A stretch of 28,670 nt of DNA, taken from the IMG/VR virus record IMGVR_UViG_3300043772_004289, positions 1-28,670 of that record; one strand, written 5' to 3'. The first letter of the stretch is position 1, and each line of letters begins with the position of its first letter. The notes under the pieces are model-generated. The model was not told where the DNA came from. It ran no database searches and worked only from the letters and a program-made list of their open reading frames with translations. This DNA comes from a virus. Below, in pieces: positions 4,580 to 27,053 of the stretch. Position numbers and translations under genes: made by a program.

Positions 4580-5119
4580 TTATGTCAACTTATTTTTGAA
4601 ATCTAATAACAATTCATCATAAAATTCATTAGTTATTTTATATTTTTTGGTAATTTCGCTTTTTTTATAATTCTGTATTACCATAATTAATATGTCAATC
4701 TCAAGTATAGTATAGTGAAAATTGATATGGTCTTGCAGCAATATAACAAATTCTTCTGTTTCATTTTGCTTGTCTTCTATCTTTTCTGGTATATCCAAAA
4801 GCAAAATTTTTCTTTCGTGTTGCAATCTTTTTGTGCCAATTAAACTTCTATAAATCCTTCCAAATATATATAATCGAGCAAAAGCGCCTAACGATACATT
4901 TTTAGATGGATCAAACCTTTTTTTAGCCATTAACAAACCATACCAGCCTTCTTGTATAGCATCTTCAAGTTCAATGCTTGAATTCATTTTTGAAAAATAA
5001 GATGCTATGTTTTTGACCAGTGGTTCATATTTCAAAATTTCATCATTTTGGTTTGATGGATCTTGTTTTAACGGACTTTTTTTCTGCGGGTTTTTTTTCT
5101 GGGATTTGTTGTTCGGCAT
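4580..5119 (-). CDS. Phage sigma-70-family factor, probably a late sigma
   Basis: A 179-residue protein. Residues about 27-95 match sigma region 2: YEPLVKNIASYF, then LEDAIQEGWYGLLMAKKRFDP, then SLGAFARLYIFGRIYRSL. This corresponds to the bacterial LIQEG-GL--A---FDP---FSTYA pattern that binds core polymerase and the -10 element. Residues 140-175 (EIDILIMVIQNYKKSEITKKYKI) resemble a degenerate region 4 helix-turn-helix. The first 25 residues are basic. ATG 5119 is chosen because GGAGG lies 3 nt upstream; the gene then overlaps the portal 3' end by 77 nt. Position inside the head operon suggests it redirects host RNA polymerase to late genes, as T4 gp55 does. That role is inferred. Confidence 0.8.
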   Translation of the reverse strand: MPNNKSQKKNPQKKSPLKQDPSNQNDEILKYEPLVKNIASYFSKMNSSIELEDAIQEGWYGLLMAKKRFDPSKNVSLGAFARLYIFGRIYRSLIGTKRLQHERKILLLDIPEKIEDKQNETEEFVILLQDHINFHYTILEIDILIMVIQNYKKSEITKKYKITNEFYDELLLDFKNKLT

Positions 5120-6713
5120 TATCCTCCACAGGTTCTGTAAACAATTCATTTATAATGTCATCAGGCAATACAGGATGGTATTGCTTCATTAGTTTTTTAC
5201 CCGCTTCTGGTGTCACTCCAACTGCCTTAATTGCCGCCACACTTTTCAAAATGTTTTCTAATCCATCATCATTCTGACTTTGCTTTTTCTGCTCATCATA
5301 TTCCATACCTTGTTCAGCTGCTATTGTATTGCTGCTCTTAATTCCCATATCCCAATAAATCTTATTAGTCTGCGCTTCCTCATATGGTTCCCTCGTAATT
5401 AAACTAGGACCAGTAGGAACGATTTTTAAATCGCTAAGAGCATTGGTAGGCAACAATCCCTTTTTAACAGCTGTGGTTATTTGCTTCCATAACAAACTTT
5501 GGTGAGGCTTGGTTCTCTTAGAAGCAAAGAAGTCGCCAACACGTTTTTGATATAAGCTAAAAGTCCTATAACTTGGACTCTCAGCCACCAAGTGACTAGC
5601 ATATGCAGAACTTTCCAACTTTTGTGTCAAGTGCGCCTCAGAAATACCAAAATTGGCTGCAATGGCTCTTAGATTAACCAACAATGTAATCTCAGCCTCA
5701 GCACTATCTAAATTCTGTTGTGGGAATTCATACTCGACGTTTGCACTGCTGGTAAGAATACTACTGTTAGGCAATGTTTCAATGTTTAAAGGTTGTTGAC
5801 CCGGTGCTGGATTTGTCACAGTTACATTCGTTGTCTTTGCCAATAAAGCATCTATTCCCTCAGGCGGAGCATTATCAATTTTACGAATCATACTTACTTT
5901 TGATCTGCTAATTGCCAAGCTAACCATACTATTCAAAATCTGCTCAGCATTCATAAAGTTTTGATACACAGGGAAGAATAGACTAATGCCTCTTTTTGAA
6001 TTACTATAAGTTCCGGCTTTATCATAATTAATATCATCAGCTGGCACTAAAGATGGCAGATAGGAAACACCTGTATCACTAAGTTTGTCACAAATCCAGT
6101 AGCCGACTACATCGTGCAAATCGTCTTTTCTACAAGCAATGCCAAAAGACATATCAGGATCATTAGTATCACTTGGGGGCAAAATAAGATCGTTTTCTAC
6201 CCACCTTAAATCTAAAAGACCATCTGAGTTCTCAAATATCCTACAACAAGCTTCACCTTCTACTACAATTCTATATATGTATTCTAATTCCATCTGTTGG
6301 AAATTATTTTTTTCTACACATAAATCAACAAGCTCTTGAGCAAGTGAAACTAATTTTGAATTAACGCCATCTTTGGTAGGTGTGACTTTATATTTAAAAC
6401 CTTCGCCAACACAGAAATCTTGAAAAATAGTAATGACAGCTTGGGCAAATTCATTGTATGCATAAATATTTCTGGCTTGTTCTCTGACCTGTTTAAGCTG
6501 CCAGTTGGTTAAATAAACCTGTTTATAATAACCTGAAAGATTGTTGTATTGAGCTGCAGTAGAATATGGGTTTACACCTGAAGCATTGCCCATATAACCA
6601 TATGGCCAATAACCTGAAGTGAAACTCTGAAGGCTATATGGAAAAAAGTCCATACCCTGACCAGCAGTAGGACCGGGTATTACAAAGTTTTCTTTTACAA
6701 ATTTTTTGGCCAT
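5043..6713 (-). CDS. Portal protein
   Basis: A 556-residue protein, the usual size for a tailed-phage portal, lying between the terminase and protease genes. The region LKQVREQARNIYAYNEFAQAVI at about 70-95 and the following IFQDFCVGEGFKYKV are typical of the portal wing start. The segment LDLRWVENDLILPP-GIACRKDDLHDVVGYWI fits the portal beta region, and VNLRAIAANFGISEAHLTQKLESSAYAS at about 350-375 fits the crown/stem helix with its conserved turn. The C-terminus is basic (KKPAEKKSVKTRSIKPK). A GTAGGT ribosome binding site lies about 8 nt before ATG 6713. The 3' end overlaps the sigma-like gene, which may couple their translation. Confidence 0.85.
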   Translation of the reverse strand: MAKKFVKENFVIPGPTAGQGMDFFPYSLQSFTSGYWPYGYMGNASGVNPYSTAAQYNNLSGYYKQVYLTNWQLKQVREQARNIYAYNEFAQAVITIFQDFCVGEGFKYKVTPTKDGVNSKLVSLAQELVDLCVEKNNFQQMELEYIYRIVVEGEACCRIFENSDGLLDLRWVENDLILPPSDTNDPDMSFGIACRKDDLHDVVGYWICDKLSDTGVSYLPSLVPADDINYDKAGTYSNSKRGISLFFPVYQNFMNAEQILNSMVSLAISRSKVSMIRKIDNAPPEGIDALLAKTTNVTVTNPAPGQQPLNIETLPNSSILTSSANVEYEFPQQNLDSAEAEITLLVNLRAIAANFGISEAHLTQKLESSAYASHLVAESPSYRTFSLYQKRVGDFFASKRTKPHQSLLWKQITTAVKKGLLPTNALSDLKIVPTGPSLITREPYEEAQTNKIYWDMGIKSSNTIAAEQGMEYDEQKKQSQNDDGLENILKSVAAIKAVGVTPEAGKKLMKQYHPVLPDDIINELFTEPVEDNAEQQIPEKKPAEKKSVKTRSIKPK

Positions 6714-11449: not shown

Positions 11450-14400
11450 TTAAGTGGGTGTCGGTGTGGGGAATCCAGCTTGAACTCCTTGAGCTGACAT
11501 ACTATTTGAACCCGGTACCTGTTCACTAAACCTGAGCCAAGTCTTAGTGTTATCTATCATAACCGGGCTGCTTTGGGCAGTAGCAAAAGTATTCAATGAA
11601 AGATTAGCATTCAAAGCTCCTACAGCCCACAATGTGTTGTCGGATTTAATCATAAATACTGTAGTTGCACATGGCTTTACATCAATCCAAGGACCACCAA
11701 TCATTTGCACCCAACTTGATTTGCTGATAACAGTCCCATCTCCAATTGTTCCACTTGTATTTGATCCCGTTGACCAAATGTTCCCAGCATTATCAAGAAT
11801 AAATGTAATTGTTGAACCACCTGCAATCTTCTGGATGGTATATGCACCACCAATTTGAATAGGTGAAGAAGCAGGAATAACATTATTTAAACCAAATTGA
11901 CCAGTGCTATTACTGCCACAAGTCCAATAAGTATTATTATTCTTCTTGGCAATAAAGTTAACAGTTCCTACTGTAACATCTACCCAGTTTGTATCAGCAC
12001 CAATTTGAACAAATTGAGAACGATTTATAAGGTCACTTTTACCTAATTGACCTTGTCCATTAAACCCACAAGACCACAATCTACCAGAACTATCAAGAGC
12101 TACTTGGCAGTTTGAGAATCCAAAAGATTCTACCCAATCAGTTTTGCCAAGTGATTCTTGAACAGGACTACTAGCATTAATTATTGTATTATTTGCAAGT
12201 CCACCATTTGCACCTTGACCAGCACTCCACAATGTTCCGTTAGGGAAGATTCTGGTTTGAACGTTTGATATGCCAAAAGATGCAAAATTAGCACCAGTTA
12301 TTTGAACTTGACTGCTCTGATTTACTGTTGAATTTATGCCCAACCTACCGTATGAGTTTAACCCTGCTTGCCATAAAGTGCTGTCTTGTTTTCTAAATAG
12401 ACCGTTGTTTCCTATTGCCACATCAGCATAAACACTAGATGGATAGAAATTATTCAATGCATTTATATTAACGGCAAGTCCGTTGCCCATTTGACCATTT
12501 GTTCCTACACCCCAACCCCACCAATTTAAGACTTCAGGGGTTGCAGAAGGAGTTGGTGTAGGAGTAGGACTTGCTGTTGCTGTTGGTGTTGGCTGAGGTA
12601 GTCCATTTGCATATGCAAATGTTTGGGGTTGGAATGTTCCTCTGATCGAATTGAAATATTGCCAGCTGAATGTATTGTCTAACATTATAGGACTGGAAAC
12701 ATTCACAAGTGATGCATTTAATAATGGAGAACCACCACTGCCAACTCCCCATAAAGTATTATCAGTCTTTATAAACAATATATTGCTTCCATTAGCACAG
12801 GCATCTAGAACACCAGATGCTATTTGTGTATAGGAACTTCTAGGTGTAATATCATTTAGTCCTAATTGTTGTTGTCCAGTTCCCCATAAATTGCCACTCG
12901 TATCAAGCAGAATTATTCCACCCGAGCTACCAACAATTTTACTTATAGTTTTATCCGATACTACTTGAACAGGACTGCTCTTGCTTATATTGGTTCCATC
13001 ACCAATTTGACCTAATGTATTGAGTCCCCAAACATAAACAGAACCATTAGTTTTAAGGGCAGCAGAAAATGCATTACTTACAAAAGTACTAGACCAATCT
13101 GTTCCTGCACCTATTTGTGTAAATGTAGATTTTGCTACATTTAAAGTATTTAATCCTTGATTGCCACTTGAGTCAGAACCAACTGTCCACAATTTGCCAG
13201 CACTATCAATTGCTAATTGTGATGCACTTCCAATAAAATGAGTCACCCAATCTGTTTTACCTAAAATTTCTTGAACAGGAGTGCTTGTATTCAAATTTGT
13301 AAGATTTATGGCTGCAGATCCTTGACCGGCAGCACCCCAAGTCCACAATGTTCCATCGGCTTTAATACCACTAGACATGTTGACATTACTTATTGCTCTT
13401 GTCCACGAACCTGTTGCTTGAACCATGCTTGAACGAGGTATTACATCTCCTAATCCTAATTGAGCAGATGTATTGCTACCACAAACCCACAAAGTGTTGT
13501 CTGCTTTTAAACCAAAGAATGCAGTTCCAATAGCTATTTGTGTGAAATCTGATGGTTGTGGATTGTAAAGTCCAGTAACTTGGTTTGTATTACCTATCGA
13601 TAGAGAACCACCTGTGTTTGATCCCCAACCCCACCAAGCACTAACTGTGCCAATTGTAGGACTTGGGGTAGGAGTTGCAGGTGCTTCTGAGGCACTTGGA
13701 GTCGGACTAGGTGTTTCACTGGCACTCGGACTTGGTGTTGGACTTGCTGTTGCTGGTGCAACACTCGGACTTGGTGTTGGACTAGCCGTTGCTGGCCCAA
13801 TAGTTGGCTGAGGTGTAGGTCCCGGATTTGTCCACTTGCATTGTAGATAATCAGACACTTGTGTAACTTCTGCTGCACTTAGCTCTCTGTCGTATACTAT
13901 AACTTCAAGAACCTTAGTGTTGGCTGGTTCATTAGCATTTGCACCTGCACCACCAAAGCAAACCTGTGCCCAGTTGCTTGTGCTGGTTGGGGTACCACTA
14001 GTTCTATCTGTGCCATCAACATAATACTTAATTGCATTGGCAGCAGACTTAGTCATGATGCCGTTGTGCTTGCCGGTTCCTGATTGATAACCAGAAACTA
14101 TAGATGCTCCATAGAAGCAACCAATAGGAGTAGGTCCACCATATTGATTCAAACTGATAAGTGCATTAATTGAACTAGATTGAACTGTTCTGTGACTTGG
14201 ACTAATTGAGGCTGGTGCATCTTCCATAACCACTATTGTACAAGCCCCAGAAAGGCTATAAGCACCATTAGTTGTCATGCCATCAGCATTTGCCCCAGCT
14301 GTATTGTCAAATAGAACGTAACTTCCAGCAACAGTGCCATCTGAGAACCAAGTGGGTTGTTTCACACTTGTTGCCTGTTGCATACCAGTCCATGTAGCAT

Positions 14401-17400
14401 TCGTTGTGCTATTGCCCCAGCTAGATACTTGAACACCATTGGTAGGAGTGCCACCATTGATCTTGCTTGTATCACTTGCATCAAACCAACCTACCATTCC
14501 ACTTGTCACAGGCAATGGCACTGGTGTGCATGTTGCCGTAGGAGATGGAGTAGGACTTGGTGATGGACTTGGTGTTGGTGAAGGTGTAAATGTCGGTGTT
14601 AAAGTCGGTGATTCACTAGGACTTGGAGATGGTGTAGGACTTTCCGTTGGAGTTGGGGAAGGACTCTCACTAGGACTTGGAGTCGGACTTTCCGTAGGTG
14701 AAGGTGTAGGACTTTCACTAGGGCTAGGAGATGGTGTAGGACTTTCCGTTGGAGTCGGTGTAGGACTCTCACTAGGACTTGGTGTTGGGCTCAGAGTAAC
14801 TGTCGGGGTTGGAACATTGGCTTGTCTGAAAGCAAACACACCCGATTGAACACAATCTAAGTCAATCCAATAGTTATCAGCAATTACTGTTTGAACCATG
14901 CTGCTTTTATTTAAAGCAAGACTAATTCCTAACATTCCTGTTCCAGCAAGACCACATCCCCATAATGTTCCATCAGTTTTAACACCAATAATAACACTTC
15001 CTCTACTCCTAGCAATTCTCCAGCTGCCAGCTATTTGAACAGGACTTGAACGGGATATGATATCATTTTGACCCAGTTGACCCGAACTGTTAAAACCCCA
15101 AACCCATAATTCATTGAGTGTGTTTAAAGCACAAACACTGCTTTGCATAGTGCCTTCAACCCAATTGTTTGCTGTGCCAATTTGTGTCCAAGAAGACCTA
15201 TTTATAGTATCTCCTAGACCCAATTGACCAACGGAATTGGTTCCAGTTGACCACATAGTGCCATCGGTTTTAAATGCTAAGAAGTTTGCTCCACCCCAGT
15301 TAGTCACAATTTTCCAGTTAGTATCAGTTCCATATTGTGTGAAACTGCTGTATGAAACTTGTAGGGCAGATCCAAAGCTGCCAGACAACCATAATGTTCC
15401 GTCATTCTTAACTAAAGTCGTGCCTATATTACTGGGAGCTTGTCCTATGTTTGTCCAACCAGTTTCAGTGACTAATTGTATTGGGCTACTAATTGTATCA
15501 AAAATTGATATAATATTACCCAATGCAGATGAACCATTACTGCCCCATCCCCACAAAGTTCCATCTTTCTTGATAGCCAAACTATTTGTATTACCAATAA
15601 GTATTTGACTCCAATTATTCTCAGTTCCTAATTGGACAGGACTAGAATAATTAATTACATTATTTAAACCTAAACTGCCTTGAGTATTATTGCCCCAAAC
15701 CCATGCTGTTCCATCTGATTTAACAATGCCTGCATTACTTCCAGCAACACTATACGGTGGATTTACTCCAACATATTCACTACTTTGTGATTGGAATGTA
15801 GGAGTAAAACGAGTTATTGTATCATTTAAACCTAACTGACCATTTGCATTACTGCCCCATGCATACAAGTCGATCAGAGTTGTAGGACTTGGACTTGGTG
15901 TTGGAGTAGGACTCTCAGAAGGACTTGGTGAAGGAGTCGGACTTGGTGATTCACTAGGTGAAGGAGTCGGACTTGGTGATTCACTTGGTGAAGGACTTGG
16001 AGTAGGACTTTCAGTCACAGTAGGACTTAATGTTGTCGTTGGAATAGGACTTTCACTAGGACTTGGTGTAGGTGTCGGTGTACTAGCAATAGTTGCTGTA
16101 GGTGTAGAAGTTGCAGCATTAATCCTTACAATTCCAAAGCTAGTTCTGTTGTTTGCACTGCATGTAAACCAGTTTAGTCCACCAGATACCAAAACAGGAC
16201 TGCTTTGATTTTGAGTTGTATTGATTCCTAATTGGCCTGCAGAACCAGTTCCCCAGCCCCACATAGTTCCATCAACCTTACGTCCCAACATTGAAGCATA
16301 GCCACATTCAATTTGATTCCATGTGGTTTCACTACCAACTTGTACAGGACTACTACGGTTAAATGCAGAACCAATATTTGAACCCAATGATCCGTTGGTG
16401 TTTTGACCCCATGTCCAAAGTGTACCATCACTCTTTATTGCACCTACTGGCCAATAATCTGCACTGACTTGTGTCCAATTGCTATTAGTGCCAACTTGTG
16501 TCCAACTAGATCTATTAATTGTATTGTTAATACCCAAACTGCCATTCGTATTAATACCACAAGACCATAATGTGCCATTAGTTTTGATAGCCAAGGCAAA
16601 TCTTTGACCAGATACTGCCACACTAGACCAGTTCAAGTCTGCACCAACCTGAACAGGACTACTACGATTCACTGCATCTATAAATCCTAGCTGTCCGGCA
16701 CTGTTGTTACCCCAAGCCCACAAACTACCATTAGTTTTAATTGCAAATGCACTATCAAATGCAGCACCACTATAGAACCTAGATACATAAACTCTTGACC
16801 ATGTATTGTCAGCACCAATTTGAACAGGACTAGACCTACTAACAATATCATTTAGACCCAATTGTCCACTACTATTATTGCCCCAAGCCCAAAGTGTGCC
16901 GTTAGTCTTGACACCAATTGTAAATCGGTCATTCATAACCCATGACCAATCAGAAGAAACTCCTACTTGTGTAGGTGTAGAACGATTAATTATATTATTT
17001 TGACCCAACTCACCACTACTATTTAGACCCCACATGTATAGGGTGCCATTATTCTTTACACCAGATATTGAATCTCCACCACTAGGAATAGTTGCCCAAT
17101 CAGATACTGCAATGAAGATTGGTGTGGACCTTTGTGTAATACCACCTTGTGTATTATTAGAATACTCACCAGTCGTGTTATCACCCCAAACATAGAATTG
17201 ATCTGCCAAAGGTGCAATGCTAGGTGTCGGTGTTGGTGCAGTGCTACTCGGTGTAGGTGGTGCAGGTGTCGGTGTTGCTGTTCCCGTAGGTGCAGGACTA
17301 CTTGTCACTGTTGGTGTCAATGTGTTAGTCGGAGCAGGTGTCGGTGGGAACGTTGCTGTAGGAGTCGGTGTAGGACTTAATGTTGCTGTCGGTGTAGGTC

Positions 17401-19990
17401 CAGTTCCACTCGGTGTCGGTGTTGGAACAGCATTGCCTATCAATCTAATCGTATTATTATTTGCTGCTCCCTGAACAGCAAAATTCAACCACTCATAGCC
17501 AACATTGCCAAGCTGAATCAAACTACTTGCATTACCATTGCCGGGCAAACCATTTCTAGTTAATAACTTGCCACTTAAATAACTACCAGCTCCCCACAAC
17601 TTATTGTTAACATCTATAGTATAAATATTATTTATAATTGGATAATAATAATTGTATGTTCCTAACAATACCGGACTACTTCTATTAATTACATTGTTTT
17701 GAGCTAGTTGACCAGAAGTATTTACACCCCAACCCCAAACTGTTGAATCACCCTTTTGAGCATAGAAATTATTATAACTAGCATAAATTGTAGTCCATGT
17801 ATTGTCTGAACCAACTTGCACAGGACTACTTCTAGAAACAGTAACATTATTCCCCAATACTCCACTTGTGGCTGAACCCCATGTCCAGAGAGTGCCATCA
17901 GTTTTAATACAACCAGCTGTCAAATAGCCAGCTGCAGGTAGTTGCCAATCCGTTGCAGTGCCAATCTGTGTAGGAACACTTACATTGGCAACATTACTTA
18001 TCCCTAATTGACCACTACTATTATTGCCCCAAGCATATAGTCTGCCCAATCTAGTAGCTAAAACAAACTCATAACCAGCCGAAACATAATCCCACACTTC
18101 ACTAGTTGCTTCTCTAACAGGACTAGTTCTGCTAATAGTTGTATTATCACCCAATTGACCTGAAGTATTTTGTCCCCATGACCACAAGCTACCATCTTGT
18201 TTTGTAGCAACCATAAACTTATTGCCAGATGAGATCTGTTCCCATTGACCACCAGTAATCTCTTGGACTGGACTACTGTAATTTATAAAGTTGTTCTGTG
18301 CACACTGACCAACATCATTATCACCAGCCAACCATAATGTATTGTCAGTTTTAATAAAACCAGTTGTATTGCCGTCTGCAATCTTCCTTTGATATACATT
18401 CAAATTGCTGAAATATGTTATGGCAGTCAATATACCAGTTGAATCCAATCCAGCTTGTCCTTGATTATTAGATCCAAATACATAAATACCATCCGGCATA
18501 ACAGTCGGTGTAGGTGTGGGAGAAGATGTTACCGTAGGTGTAGGAGAAGCCGTTGTAGTAGGTGATTCCGTAGGTGTAGGACTCTCTGTGACCGTAGGTG
18601 TAGGAGATTCTGTTACCGTAGGTGTAGGACTCTCTGTTGTTGTCGGTGTAGGACTTGCTGTTACTGTAGGTGCTATAGTGGACGATGCAGTCGGTGTCGG
18701 TGTAGGTACAAAAGCACTTACACTCGGTGTAGGTGTATTCGTTGCACTTGTAGGACTTGGACTTGGACTTGGTGGAATTGCAATAGCCGATCCTATGCCT
18801 GAACTTCCAAATTGAATACTTGGGAAATCAATCCAAGTTCTGGTGCTATCCAACATAACCGGAGAAGATGTATTAGTGTTATAACCACCCGGACTCAATA
18901 TAGGTGCTGCCGTTCCAGTGCCCCACAATGTTCCATCATTCTTAATATACAATGTATCATTAGAAACAACTCTCATAGCAGTCCATTGAGCATTCTGCTG
19001 AACCGGACTTGACTTATTAATTATGGTGTTATCACCAAGCTGACCTTCTCCACCTCTACCCCACATCCAATAATTATTCGATGTATCTTTGCCTAATGCC
19101 GTAAAGTTGCCAATTTCTATGTCAGACCAAGTTTTATTATTTGATAGTATAGGACTGTTATTAGAAACAGCAGTGTTATTACCAAATATACCACTAGTAC
19201 CATTACCCCAAGCCCAAAGGCTTCCATCCTTCTTAATAGCAAAAGCAGATGTATTGCCACCAACTACTCTAGCCCAATCTGTTCCTGCACCAATTTGTGT
19301 CCAACTAGATACAGATACGGCACTACCTCTACCACCCTGACCTTGATTAGATGCACCTGTAGACCACAATCTACCAGAACTATCCACTGTAAATGCTGCA
19401 CTAGAAGCCAAACTTATATCAACATAAGTACCAGCAATTTGAACAGGACTAGAACGATTAACAACATCATCTAATCCAAGTTGTCCACTACCATTGTTGC
19501 CCCAAACATACAAACTACCATCATTCTTCAATGCTATGGTAGCTCCACCACCTGATAATGCATTAACCCAATCATTGCCACTTCCTACCTTAATTACACT
19601 ACTAACACCAACTGTAGAATTATTTCCCAAAGAACCAGTTGTATTTTGTCCACACATCCATAAAGATCCATCAGGTCTCAACCATACGGTCTGATTGCCA
19701 CCACCCATGTTGGTAAAATAATTGAGATTGAAATAGTTATTGAAGCTCTGAACGTTAGCAAGTCCACCAGTATTCAACTGCCCAAATGGATTATTACCCC
19801 AAACATATAAATATGCAGGATTTAAAGTAGGTGCAGGTGTAGGTGTGGGAGTAGCTGTAAATGCAATAGTAGGGGTAGGACTACTAGTAGGGGTAGGACT
19901 ATTAGTAGGAATAGGTGTAGGCAAACTAGCAGATCTACTACTACTTAGACCTGCATGCAAAAGTAATAAACTAGTTGAAGCTAACACCAT
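11450..19990 (-). CDS. Giant multi-propeller RCC1-repeat protein with a LamG-like domain
   Basis: A 2846-residue protein and nearly 30% of the window. Order: hydrophobic N-terminus (1-25), Pro/Thr linker, RCC1 propeller 1 (about 60-403), 2 (498-852), 3 (928-1290), 4 (1371-1724), a LamG/concanavalin-like domain (about 1825-2053: [14 protein letters not shown] ... [15 protein letters not shown]), propeller 5 (2115-2462), 6 (2486-2838), and a terminal PTPTPT tail. Propellers consist of about 50-residue blades of the form [22 protein letters not shown]. Linkers are runs of PTPSPSES type. It starts 5 nt after the fibre gene stop, so it is probably co-expressed as a virion surface or receptor-binding protein. 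Ligand and location are inferred. The abrupt end in a linker suggests loss of a further module. Confidence 0.85.
12533..12605 (-). repeat. Pro/Thr/Ser linker between RCC1 propellers 5 and 6
   Basis: Low-complexity coding repeat ([18 protein letters not shown]), the shortest internal linker of the giant gene. Confidence 0.8.
13645..13830 (-). repeat. Pro/Thr/Ser linker between LamG-like domain and propeller 5
   Basis: Coding tandem repeats including two [10 protein letters not shown] units. DNA-level repetition is high enough to allow slippage or recombination. Confidence 0.8.
14515..14815 (-). repeat. Pro/Thr/Ser linker between propeller 4 and the LamG-like domain
   Basis: The longest linker, about 100 residues, with repeated SPSESPTP units in tandem. 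It contains several near-identical 24-36 bp DNA repeats. Confidence 0.8.
15879..16118 (-). repeat. Pro/Thr/Ser linker between propellers 3 and 4
   Basis: Tandem [10 protein letters not shown] units, with two adjacent copies nearly identical in DNA at about 15925-15990. Confidence 0.8.
17208..17435 (-). repeat. Pro/Thr/Ala linker between propellers 2 and 3
   Basis: A more Ala- and Gly-containing linker ([13 protein letters not shown] and similar) than the Ser/Glu-rich ones. Confidence 0.8.
18498..18780 (-). repeat. Pro/Thr/Ser linker between propellers 1 and 2
   Basis: Tandem TESPTPTV units, three in a row at about 18560-18640, with near-identical DNA. Confidence 0.8.
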
Positions 19991-23631: not shown

Positions 23632-23844
23632 TTAGGAGGATGAATTGGAACCCCATACACCGTCTGCGCAATTGGGACGCCTATGAGTCCATTCCCATGA
23701 GCACACTGTGGATTCATCTGTTAGTGCTGGGTGGCTTTCCCAATGTCGGCTTCTATCAAACCGGTCATTGTCGCCTTCAATGGGCTTGAAAATATATGAC
23801 CCAGCATACTGTGTGTTAGCCTGAACTACTTCAAACATACGCAT
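23632..23844 (-). CDS. Unknown 70-residue protein, separately promoted
   Basis: Start MRMFEVVQANTQ at ATG 23844, chosen because AGAGG lies 8 nt upstream and a perfect consensus promoter lies beyond that. An upstream in-frame extension to 24006 would start before the promoter and is rejected. The protein is polar and rich in Trp, Arg and Asp (DRFDRSRHWESHPAL, SWEWTHRRPNCADGVWG), with no membrane segment or recognised domain. It forms a single-gene unit between promoter P2 and a strong terminator. It is probably an early host-takeover type gene, judged only from its promoter class. Confidence 0.7.
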   Translation of the reverse strand: MRMFEVVQANTQYAGSYIFKPIEGDNDRFDRSRHWESHPALTDESTVCSWEWTHRRPNCADGVWGSNSSS

Positions 23845-23883
23845 TGACGTATCCTCTGTGTCGCACCGTGTTGTCAAAGAGTG

Positions 23884-23936
23884 GGACCTAGTTATGGTCC
23901 ATGCACTCATTATACCACACCTCACAACCTTGTCAA
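23884..23936 (-). promoter_or_regulatory. Consensus sigma-70 promoter with 5'-terminal hairpin (P2)
   Basis: Minus-strand TTGACA (23931-23936), 16-nt spacer, TATAAT (23909-23914), then GAGTGCA and the hairpin GGACC-n7-GGTCC (23884-23900). Farther down, GTGCGAC (23860-23866) precedes the AGAGG of the 70-residue gene. Both boxes match the sigma-70 consensus exactly. Confidence 0.88.
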
Positions 23937-24035
23937 GAAAATTTTTGTAAAATTTTGTTATACTAAATACCTGTATAAAACAACAAATCCGTATCATACC
24001 ATACACATTTTATCCAAGTCAATCCCATTTTACTT

Positions 24036-24079: not shown

Positions 24080-24092
24080 TATTTTATTGGGC

Positions 24093-24145
24093 TTGAAATT
24101 GGAATTGGTGTGGGCTATAGTGAGTGTGTAAGGCATGGGTTGCCT
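24093..24145 (+). promoter_or_regulatory. Sigma-70-like promoter with 5'-terminal hairpin (P3)
   Basis: TTGAAA (24093-24098), 17-nt spacer, TATAGT (24116-24121), then GAGTGTG and hairpin AGGCA-tgggt-TGCCT (24131-24145). It drives the 24170 gene. Confidence 0.75.
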
Positions 24146-24169
24146 GACTTAAAGCAACTGGAGGTTGAC

Positions 24170-24457
24170 ATGTATACGCTGGAAGAAGTTAAGGCTCTTG
24201 GTGAACAAACTCAGTACCCTGCTACGGTTTATCGGTATTGCAATGTGTCACCATCAATGTTTGGCGGATACAATAAAGAAGTATGGTGGGTTGTGACAAC
24301 TTTTGAATGGAATCGATACCGTCAAGAAGTGCAAAAAACCAAATTGACATACAAAAATAAAAAAGAAGCCATGAAGAATTTTCCTCATGCTGTCCACATT
24401 GAAAACAAATGTAATTGCAAAGGCATCAAACACAGAAACTGTTGCAACCAAAAATAA
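24170..24457 (+). CDS. Unknown 95-residue protein
   Basis: Start MYTLEEVKALGEQTQ at ATG 24170, chosen because GGAGG lies 5 nt upstream. A longer reading from 24110 would begin inside the promoter. The body has aromatic residues (EVWWVVTTFEWNRYRQEV) and then a basic segment (KTKLTYKNKKEAMKNF). It ends in a Cys/His-rich tail (HIENKCNCKGIKHRNCCNQK), which could bind zinc. It is a single-gene unit between promoter P3 and a UUCG-loop terminator. No family was recognised. Confidence 0.7.
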   Translation: MYTLEEVKALGEQTQYPATVYRYCNVSPSMFGGYNKEVWWVVTTFEWNRYRQEVQKTKLTYKNKKEAMKNFPHAVHIENKCNCKGIKHRNCCNQK

Positions 24458-24470
24458 ATAATTTACCAAC

Positions 24471-24499
24471 AGGGGGCTTCGGCCCCCTTTATTTTTTTT
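24471..24499 (+). terminator. Intrinsic terminator with UUCG tetraloop
   Basis: Stem AGGGGGC/GCCCCCT closed by a TTCG loop, followed by TTTATTTTTTTT, 13 nt after the stop of the 24170 gene. Confidence 0.92.
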
Positions 24500-24850: not shown

Positions 24851-24918
24851 CTTCTTGACTTTTGATTTTTTGTGGCTAGTATGAGTGCAGACATCCAGCA
24901 GTTTGGTTGTCGTGCGAC
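24851..24918 (+). promoter_or_regulatory. Promoter/leader cassette, copy 1 (P4)
   Basis: TTGACT (24855-24860), 16-nt spacer, TAGTAT (24877-24882), hairpin 24890-24911, GTGCGAC (24912-24918) just before AGAGG. It is 64/68 identical to 26461-26528. Two of the four differences fall at positions that face each other in the hairpin: T-T here, C-G in copy 2. Confidence 0.8.
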
Positions 24919-24931
24919 AGAGGAAATGGTC

Positions 24932-25447
24932 ATGACGAAAATTGAAAAAGCGATTAATGATGCTCAGACTGAACTGGTGACACAGTGGTGTGCGAGGAAT
25001 GAGCGTGTGCCTAGCATTGACAGTGATGATATGCTAGAGAAAGGTTGGGGATTGTGGTTGGAAATGGAAAAAGCGTTGAGTGAAAAAGAGGAATTGATCT
25101 TCAATGAGGATGGGGATGAAATAATCAGCAACGCTATGACAGTGGCTCTGTGTGAATGGATTAAAAATCATGAGGGCAAAATGCCTAAGAAAAGCAGCGG
25201 TGATCTCATTGAGAAGGGATTGGCTTTTTGGCGGGAGGAGAAGTGCAAAGCTAAAAAGCGTCAGACTTTAAAAATAACCAAAGAAGATCACGAAGAAATT
25301 CAAGAAAACTTGATGCATTATAAAGATTTGTTGTTGAAAGCGATGCATACCGGTGAAGATAAACCTCGAATTGATACGCTGATGGGCAAAGCGTTCTTTT
25401 TGTTGACTACTAAGCACGTTGTGATCAAATATGTAGACAGCTATTGA
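24932..25447 (+). CDS. Unknown 171-residue helical protein with an internal duplication
   Basis: ATG 24932 is chosen because AGAGG lies 8 nt upstream; ATG 24926 would leave only 2 nt. Longer in-frame starts (GTG 24872, ATG 24881) lie in the promoter. The protein contains two copies of one motif: ELVTQWCARNERVPSIDSDDMLEKGWGLW, then ALCEWIKNHEGKMPKKSSGDLIEKGLAFW. Both follow W----NE--P---S-D--EKG---W. The rest is charged and helical. No family was recognised. Its promoter/leader and 3' tag are shared with the 56-residue gene at 26544, although the proteins are unrelated, so this looks like an exchangeable early-gene cassette. Confidence 0.75.
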   Translation: MTKIEKAINDAQTELVTQWCARNERVPSIDSDDMLEKGWGLWLEMEKALSEKEELIFNEDGDEIISNAMTVALCEWIKNHEGKMPKKSSGDLIEKGLAFWREEKCKAKKRQTLKITKEDHEEIQENLMHYKDLLLKAMHTGEDKPRIDTLMGKAFFLLTTKHVVIKYVDSY

Positions 25448-25448
25448 A

Positions 25449-25466
25449 CCACAGCTGAGTCGCACC
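25449..25466 (+). repeat. 18-bp 3' tag, copy 1
   Basis: CCACAGCTGAGTCGCACC, 1 nt after the stop of the 24932 gene, identical to 26705-26722. It contains GTCGCAC, the reverse complement of GTGCGAC in the same gene's leader. Confidence 0.8.
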
Positions 25467-25476
25467 AGTTTGGGGA

Positions 25477-25512
25477 ATCCCCTTCAGTGTAAAAACTGGA
25501 GGGGATTTTTTT
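25477..25512 (+). terminator. Intrinsic terminator after the 24932 gene
   Basis: A 12-bp stem (25477-25488 with 25495-25506, one G-T pair), GTAAAA loop, then seven T. An overlapping GGGG-AAT-CCCC hairpin (25472-25482) could compete for the 5' arm. Confidence 0.9.
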
Positions 25513-25523
25513 AAATATTTTAC

Positions 25524-25574
25524 TTGAATTTTTAAAAGTATGGTCTACTATGCATGTGTAGTCCACTCCGGGCT
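25524..25574 (+). promoter_or_regulatory. Sigma-70-like promoter with 5'-terminal hairpin (P5)
   Basis: TTGAAT (25524-25529), 16-nt spacer, TACTAT (25546-25551), then hairpin AGTCC-actcc-GGGCT (25560-25574). TGCGAC (25584-25589) abuts the GAGG of the DUF5131 gene. Confidence 0.75.
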
Positions 25575-25601
25575 GCTTTTAACTGCGACGAGGATTTTAA
25601 C

Positions 25602-26360
25602 ATGGCTGAGAAAACAGGAATTACTTGGTGCGACTCAACGATTAACTTTTGGTGGGGGTGCGTTAAAATTAGTGAGGGTTGCAAATTCTGCTATGCAGAA
25701 ATAGAAAATAGGCGGTATCAGCGTGCTGGTTGGGGACCTGATTCTGAAAGGACTTGGATAGTAGGTGCGCCTGCATTAGCTAAAAAATTAAATAAAAAAG
25801 CGATTGCAGAAAACAGAGACATTGTTGTGTTTTCAAATTCCATGGCTGATTTTTTTGAAGACCATAAGTCTTTAGAAAAATTTAGAAATGAAGCTTGGCA
25901 TATTATAAAAACCAACAATCGGATCAAATGGTTGCTTTTGACAAAACGGTCGGATAATATTATCAAGATGTTGCCAGAAGATTTCTTCGCTGGTGGCTAT
26001 TCCCATGTCAACCTTGGCGTGACCTGTGAAAGTGCTGATTATGTTTATAGGTTAGATGATTTGCGGGCGGTTTCGGAGTGGGGCGGTATTCGTTGGGTTT
26101 CCTATGAGCCTGCTATAGGTCCTATTCATGACGTTGTTGATTTGACAGGCATTTCGTGGATGATTTATGGCGGTGAATCTGGTCGGTCTCTAAGTGGTTA
26201 CAGGAAGGATTCTGATGACTGGGCATTGGGGATCAAAGCAAAATGTGATGCTTTGGGTGTCGATTTTTTCTACAAGCAGAACAGCGGTTTGTCTAGAGAT
26301 TTGTCCGACAAACTGTTAGGGACAGAATATAAAAAATTCCCTAAATTTTCATTAGTCTAA
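25602..26360 (+). CDS. Gp37/Gp68 family protein (DUF5131)
   Basis: A 252-residue protein. The start MAEKTGITWCDSTINFWWGC at ATG 25602 is set by GAGG 8 nt upstream; ATG 25554 is at or before the transcription start. The TGITWCDSTINFWWGCVKISEGCKFCYAE segment carries the family Cys set (Cys20, Cys27, Cys30). This recalls a radical-SAM cluster site but with longer spacing. Later come RIKWLLLTKRSDNI, LGVTCESADYVYRLDDLRAV, RWVSYEPAIGPI and SWMIYGGESGRS, all typical of the family. The C-terminus has DALGVDFFYKQNSG, as expected. The family is widespread in phages and bacteria and its reaction is not established. It is a single-gene unit with its own promoter and terminator. Confidence 0.9.
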   Translation: MAEKTGITWCDSTINFWWGCVKISEGCKFCYAEIENRRYQRAGWGPDSERTWIVGAPALAKKLNKKAIAENRDIVVFSNSMADFFEDHKSLEKFRNEAWHIIKTNNRIKWLLLTKRSDNIIKMLPEDFFAGGYSHVNLGVTCESADYVYRLDDLRAVSEWGGIRWVSYEPAIGPIHDVVDLTGISWMIYGGESGRSLSGYRKDSDDWALGIKAKCDALGVDFFYKQNSGLSRDLSDKLLGTEYKKFPKFSLV

Positions 26361-26361
26361 A

Positions 26362-26411
26362 TGAGCCTCCCTGTCGCAGGGGTGTAGTGGTGTGTAGCCA
26401 CTGAGCGGACC
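26362..26411 (+). other. 3' element of the DUF5131 unit
   Basis: CCCTG-TCG-CAGGG (26369-26381) contains GTCGCA (26373-26378), the reverse complement of TGCGAC in this gene's leader, with CCTC just before it that could pair with the GAGG. Further on, CCACTGAGCGGACC (26398-26411) looks like a degenerate copy of the 18-bp 3' tag. Confidence 0.4.
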
Positions 26412-26446
26412 AAGAGCTTTTTGTTCTTGGTCCGCTTCTTTTATTT
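26404..26446 (+). terminator. Intrinsic terminator after the DUF5131 gene
   Basis: Stem GCGGACCAAGA/TCTTGGTCCGC (26405-26415 with 26425-26435) followed by TTCTTTTATTTT. Confidence 0.9.
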
Positions 26447-26460
26447 TCGAATGAAAAAAA

Positions 26461-26528
26461 CTTCTTGACTTTTGATTTTTTGTGGCTAGTATGAATGCAG
26501 ACACCCAGCGGTTTGGGTGTCGTGCGAC
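26461..26528 (+). promoter_or_regulatory. Promoter/leader cassette, copy 2 (P6)
   Basis: TTGACT (26465-26470), 16-nt spacer, TAGTAT (26487-26492), then a perfect 7-bp hairpin (26500-26521) and GTGCGAC (26522-26528). It is a near copy of 24851-24918 but drives an unrelated gene. Confidence 0.8.
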
Positions 26529-26543
26529 TGACTCGAGGTTATT

Positions 26544-26714
26544 ATGCAAAAGACACAAAAGACACAAACATGCTGGACGTGCGATCAGAATGATTCATAC
26601 TGCCGCTGCAAGCGCTGCAAAGATTGTCATCGGACCGGGCATTTTGAGAACTATGGAGACGTAGTTTGCATTACATGCAAAGAACAAGCACAAAAACTAC
26701 TGAGCCACAGCTGA
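26544..26714 (+). CDS. 56-residue Cys-rich zinc-ribbon-like protein
   Basis: ATG 26544 with GAGG 5 nt upstream; TGA at 26712-26714. The sequence has eight Cys: Cys10-x2-Cys13, Cys20-x-Cys22-x2-Cys25-x2-Cys28 followed by His29 and His33, and Cys42-x2-Cys45. This would support one or two zinc sites, with CWTC and CITC as the likely paired knuckles. There is no membrane segment. It uses the same promoter/leader and 3' tag as the 24932 gene. The 3' tag begins inside its coding region, so its last residues (LLSHS) are encoded by the tag. Possible roles include nucleic-acid or protein binding; no family was recognised. Confidence 0.75.
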   Translation: MQKTQKTQTCWTCDQNDSYCRCKRCKDCHRTGHFENYGDVVCITCKEQAQKLLSHS

Positions 26715-26722
26715 GTCGCACC
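26705..26722 (+). repeat. 18-bp 3' tag, copy 2
   Basis: Identical to 25449-25466. It overlaps the last codons and stop of the 56-residue gene. GTCGCAC lies at 26715-26721, complementary to GTGCGAC at 26522-26528; pairing extends to 8 nt with the flanking T and A. Confidence 0.8.
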
Positions 26723-26733
26723 GGCGTGGAAAG

Positions 26734-26770
26734 TCCCCCTAAACTGTAATGGTTTAGGGGGATTTTTTTT
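26734..26770 (+). terminator. Intrinsic terminator after the 56-residue gene
   Basis: An 11-bp perfect stem (26734-26744 with 26752-26762) and eight T. The T-run overlaps the stop codon of the convergent gene at 26769. Confidence 0.92.
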
Positions 26771-27053
26771 ATTGATAACCTTTTTCTTTTGCCCAGTCCT
26801 GAACAATTTTAAAGATTTCATCGTGTTCGTCGGTTGAGATTACTTTGAAGCCGCTTTCTGTCAGTAGCATATCGATGCATTCGCACAGGTAGTTGGCTTC
26901 TTCTTCGTCTAGTCCTAAGTTATTGATTTTGACTGCTTCTTCGATGTATTCGTCATCGATGAATTGAGCAACGCTCATGGTATCCATCAGCAGCGTTTCA
27001 ACGACTTCTAACGCATAAGTTCTGATGATATGTAATCGACTACAATCGCCCAC
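26769..27053 (-). CDS. Unknown 94-residue acidic protein, GTG start
   Basis: The GTG at 27053 is accepted because GGAGG lies 4 nt upstream. It overlaps the previous stop by one base (TAGTG), a classic coupling arrangement. The protein is helical and acidic (FIDDEYIEEAVKINNLGLDEEEANYLCECIDMLL) with no membrane segment and no recognised domain. It is co-transcribed with the 55-residue gene at 27053-27220 and converges on the terminator at 26734-26770. Confidence 0.65.
   Translation of the reverse strand: MGDCSRLHIIRTYALEVVETLLMDTMSVAQFIDDEYIEEAVKINNLGLDEEEANYLCECIDMLLTESGFKVISTDEHDEIFKIVQDWAKEKGYQ

Follow-up and report, generated by a model that had tools for sequence, protein, structure and literature searches.

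The region at 23.6–26.8 kb of the phage DNA analysed here is reasonably likely to consist of five self-contained one-gene transcription units which carry one recurrent regulatory shell, resembling the promoter early stem-loop (PeSL) of T4-type phages. The DNA is a 28.7-kb IMG/VR record from an uncultured tailed phage, and "the window" refers to all 28,670 nt of it. The units are Y, on the minus strand, followed by Z, A, B (which encodes a DUF5131 protein) and C.

In the proposed 5′ shell, a host-sigma70-type promoter and a conserved start region would be joined by a hairpin that sits at the RNA 5′ end or close to it; four of the five units also have a TGCGAC box next to the Shine–Dalgarno (SD) sequence. 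The 3′ shell would comprise an intrinsic terminator, with a hairpin before it in A and C. Inside such a shell, expression of each gene could be independent and insulated and would probably be early, and the 5′ end of the mRNA could be protected; any inserted gene would therefore be expressed without needing an operon context. The shared shells may also act as short anchors at which homologous-recombination machinery exchanges the enclosed gene. Early timing, mRNA stabilisation and gene swapping are what we infer from this layout, and homologous swapping between shells is plausible by analogy with known phage elements.

Five leaders and five unrelated genes

Aligning the five leaders reveals a common class: CTTGAM, a spacer of 16–17, a TGG-type extended −10, TAnnnT, a GAGTGYA-like start region and then a hairpin. 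When both strands of the window are searched, this pattern matches five sites (Y 23937 on the minus strand, Z 24092, A 24854, B 25523 and C 26464) whereas 0.09 would be expected in shuffled sequence; as the pattern was derived from these same five leaders, the test demonstrates the specificity of the class, not an advance prediction. The pattern has zero matches in the available DNA of the relatives or of G001; a weak leader-like match in G001 (L009) was dismissed as a T-rich chance match. The promoters are predicted, being matches to the host-sigma70-type consensus, with A and C each scoring 9/12. In every unit, the predicted RNA 5′ end lies at or near the hairpin, and each unit ends with an intrinsic terminator of its own. 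Rfam gave no covariance match at gathering score anywhere in the window, only weak sub-threshold hits.

Unit Y (minus strand) has its leader at 23845–23945, with promoter TTGACA/TATAAT (23936–23909), a GGACC..GGTCC hairpin, the TGCGAC box (first base 23865) and an SD. It is followed by a 70-aa ORF (23632–23844) and a terminator (23627–23596). The other four units are on the plus strand. The leader of Z (24085–24169) has promoter TTGAAA/TATAGT (24093–24121), a GGCA..TGCC hairpin and a degenerate GCAAC preceding GGAGG; its ORF (24170–24457) encodes 95 aa and its terminator is at 24471–24488. The leader of A (24851–24931) has promoter TTGACT/TAGTAT, a hairpin close to the predicted 5′ end, box GTGCGAC (TGCGAC at 24913) and SD GAGG, and leads into a 171-aa ORF (24932–25447). 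In B, the leader (25520–25601) has promoter CTTGAA/TACTAT, a GTAGTCC..GGGCTGC hairpin and CTGCGAC immediately 5′ of GAGG (TGCGAC at 25584), and the ORF (25602–26360) encodes 252 aa. The leader of C (26461–26543) is a copy of the A leader, with box GTGCGACT (TGCGAC at 26523) and SD GAGG, and its ORF (26544–26714) encodes a 56-aa Cys-rich protein with CxxC pairs.

The box TGCGAC occurs 0–6 nt before the SD in Y, A, B and C, and before none of the 25 other gene starts; the combination of TGCGAC, SD and start codon was found four times where 0.1 was expected. The box abuts the SD and overlaps it only in B, and Z has neither box nor anti-box (its reverse complement) in canonical form.

The genes behind these leaders encode mutually unrelated proteins: no pairwise comparison of the five was significant. 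Only the B protein has a family match (DUF5131, PF07505), and it also matches a radical-SAM model weakly; the other four have none. Two PADLOC candidate defence models, PDC-M41B and PDC-M30B, also match the B protein, as does radical SAM mobile pair protein A, though below cutoff. The A protein is predicted to be helical, with low confidence (pLDDT 49). Separately, it contains an internal repeat of approximately 48 residues, in which the motif W..........DxLEKG...W.E occurs twice, with a score that none of 500 shuffles reached.

The box, its complement and possible 5′–3′ pairing

The 3′ shell of A (25440–25515) contains an 18-nt tag (25449–25466) and a terminator (25472–25511), and that of C (26694–26772) contains its own copy of the tag (26705–26722) and a terminator (26728–26768). 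In both, the tag forms the left arm and loop of a bulged hairpin directly before the terminator: CCA(C)AGCUG[AGUCGCAC]CAGUUUGG in A and CCAC(A)GCUG[AGUCGCAC]CGGCGUGG in C. All three differences between the two right arms preserve pairing, and taken with those in the leader stem, the A/C differences preserve or improve it. The leader box GUGCGACU and the 8-nt loop, AGUCGCAC, are reverse complements, which places an anti-box, GTCGCA, at 25459 in A and at 26715 in C, where it overlaps the stop codon. The 3′ shell of B (26361–26440, terminator 26403–26437) has the anti-box inside TCCCTGTCGCAG (GTCGCA at 26373).

These complements raise the alternative that leader and tag are conserved for RNA pairing. 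A tentative version is that the SD-adjacent box pairs with the 3′ UTR anti-box of the same or a sister mRNA, via the loop AGUCGCAC. Translation or decay may then be controlled in the style of the icaR 3′ UTR, with the repeats kept for pairing instead of for recombination, a reading we regard as possible. The box was defined from the leaders alone, and its reverse complement then appeared in the 3′ UTRs of A, C and B, with the tag-hairpin loop of A and C being exactly the anti-box. Were anti-boxes placed at random, two or more of the four independent 3′ UTRs would contain one with P = 2e-4. In B, the box CUGCGAC faces GUCGCAG in the 3′ UTR, so the outer pair is changed on both sides (in DNA letters, CTGCGAC/GTCGCAG). 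Folding of complete transcripts gives box:anti-box pair probabilities of 0.96 in A and 0.999 in B, and there are precedents for 5′–3′ UTR pairing in icaR and hbs (PMC3868564, PMC7821165).

Other results argue against this model. The pair probability in C is just 0.13 with its native coding sequence, rising to 0.86 without it. Net interaction energies between leader and 3′ UTR are no better than shuffles in A and C and marginal in B, and those of A and C are also unexceptional relative to the ends of other genes. Predicted SD accessibility is nearly equal in nascent and complete transcripts, and Y has the box and no anti-box. Given these unexceptional energies, the flat accessibility and the case of Y, we treat 5′–3′ pairing as a lead and not as a demonstrated structure: its support comes from motif statistics and a single co-changed pair, and folding energies do not back it. 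A translation timer, in which the finished 3′ UTR sequesters the SD, was considered and is unsupported by the predicted accessibility.

The pairing model can be combined with gene exchange. The units would then form an RNA-bound regulon of unrelated single genes, in which most members have an SD-adjacent box and most of those also have the complementary loop in the 3′ UTR of the same mRNA. Once complete, transcripts would fold back or act in trans as repressors of their sisters, and the shared identities would permit exchange of the genes; we consider this combination unlikely. The RNA-level constraint from hairpins, box and anti-box does explain part of the conservation of the regulatory shell without any swapping.

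Identity between units A and C

A sequence-only reading of this DNA had proposed that A and C carry unrelated genes within the same promoter/leader and 3′-tag shell. Recounting gives 64 identical bases of 68 between the leaders (24851–24918 and 26461–26528) and 18 of 18 between the tags (CCACAGCTGAGTCGCACC). The interiors share nothing, their DNA local score being at the level of shuffled sequence (P = 0.95). The proposal of a shared shell is supported, and a total of five units fall under it. Its suggestion that the DUF5131 unit has a diverged version of the same layout held for promoter class, hairpin and box; the 3′ shell is convincingly common to A and C only. Identity between A and C drops to background directly outside the leader block, both upstream and within the genes. 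As that reading had also stated, no recombinase site was seen at the shells.

The 3′ match proved longer than the tag. It covers approximately 77 alignable columns with 53 identities (69%), spans the last codons through the intrinsic terminator and has the 18 nt as its perfect core; a perfect run of that length at 69% identity has P = 0.02. The 5′ identity of 94% is significantly higher than the 3′ identity of 69% (Fisher P = 1e-4), which argues against the ageing of one duplicated unit. Whole-unit duplication fits this contrast less well than recent homogenisation/conversion or a 5′ part acquired separately, and the sequences are in line with recent homogenisation or copying of the A and C 5′ shells. 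PeSL-mediated exchange would be expected to produce this pattern, yet gene conversion alone would be expected to do so equally.

The simplest alternative is an ordinary partial duplication, in which one unit was duplicated, chance replaced or removed its coding part and the leaders are kept alike by gene conversion, making a cassette function unnecessary. The identical promoter spacers of A and C point to recent copying, and their homologous 3′ ends, terminators included, point to an older common origin of both units. However, duplication alone explains neither the promoter class in Y, Z and B, nor the box in Y and B, nor the total loss of coding similarity, and we consider it doubtful.

Highly improbable is a DNA-level cassette, in which the inverted repeats GTGCGACT and AGTCGCAC around each ORF are recombinase or transposase ends or sites: repeats in inverted orientation do flank A, B and C, and A/C identity ends exactly past the box, but the repeats are just 6–8 bp, differ in sequence among units and lack their second copy in Y, neither target duplications nor a recombinase were found, and the anti-box sits inside an RNA-like hairpin with co-varying arms. 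An integron- or transposon-like cassette was likewise set aside, with no supporting features.

Homologous exchange predicts that the shells occur around other genes in related phages, as the sequence-only reading noted. Exact leader and tag patterns had no match in IMG/VR, the leader core had none in GTDB contigs, and blastn with the region found none in INPHARED. The leader alone, searched against INPHARED and PLSDB at E up to 10, gave only partial low-score matches with E of 0.7 and above. Proteins A and C, along with 269-aa and 308-aa proteins, had no relatives in IMG/VR, and the DUF5131 protein had one distant IMG/VR relative, which lacks the shell. A terminase search identified five close relatives with 67–99.9% DNA identity, all covering only 1–19 kb of the window and ending before 20 kb; terminase alignment found nothing in GTDB contigs. 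No relative carrying the 23.6–26.8 kb region was found in IMG/VR, INPHARED, PLSDB or GTDB contigs. The leader and tag were found nowhere else in these collections only because no genome spanning the region turned up there, and for the same reason no gene swap was observed.

Relation to known systems and other loci in the window

The closest parallel to the five-unit shell is the PeSL of T4-type phages (Arbiol et al. 2010; Comeau et al. 2014, via PMC4503421 and PMC3950731). As described in those two articles, an early-type promoter and stem-loop are found ahead of numerous small, unrelated genes within a variable region, and homology-based shuffling has been proposed. The leaders described here likewise couple a promoter directly to a stem-loop, are repeated in one genome and have different, unrelated genes downstream. 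Unlike PeSLs, the shell adds a box next to the SD, which three units match with an anti-box on the 3′ side; it is known from one genome, with five copies in approximately 3 kb and no shuffling observed. Membership of this phage in the T4 type is also not established: the best annotated terminase relatives are at approximately 26% and include Arthrobacter phages, and in this phage fragment (not a full genome), neither terminase nor portal has a close T4 relative.

A second parallel is the haloarchaeal virus HGTV-1, in which, according to a passage of PMC3950731, a conserved promoter-like motif and inverted repeat precede most ORFs of one genome part. The likeness is a conserved promoter motif with an inverted repeat heading multiple ORFs. 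HGTV-1 differs in having an archaeal TATA-type promoter, and the passage describes no 3′ element.

For the 3′ half of the shell, the parallel is icaR of Staphylococcus aureus, where a 3′ UTR motif is complementary to the gene's own SD region (PMC3868564). Units A, B and C similarly have a 3′ UTR anti-box against an SD-region box, for example UCCCUGUCGCAG facing CUGCGACGAGGA in B. However, icaR is one bacterial gene, its 3′ UTR is long and its pairing has been proven by experiment, whereas here several unrelated phage genes share box and anti-box, which are known from sequence and have unexceptional energies. The possible 5′–3′ RNA link is the newest part.

If the five-unit reading is true, a PeSL-like plug-in expression shell exists in a phage lineage not established as T4-type, and it has gained a 3′ half which may communicate with the 5′ half. 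It would then become testable how phages take up orphan genes and express them one at a time, and whether pairing between 5′ and 3′ UTRs serves phage mRNAs as a common means of control.

Several other loci in the window deserve mention. Its terminase, portal and PhoH-like genes are all on the minus strand. Also on the minus strand, at 1143–1258, is another promoter (TTGACA/TACACT) with a GAACAGGAAGTTC hairpin, a second long hairpin and then a 186-aa ORF, a layout that resembles the five units but has no box. A 189-aa ORF (4580–5149, minus strand) overlaps the portal gene and, along 86 residues, matches the RNA polymerase sigma factor PHROG (E = 1e-12), an unusual location for a sigma-like domain. 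At 11450–19990, the window encodes a 2846-aa protein of RCC1-like repeats with Ser/Pro/Thr linkers between them, and a near-identical contig (L004, 18714–20438) runs beyond the left end of the window into a second RCC1-like-repeat protein.
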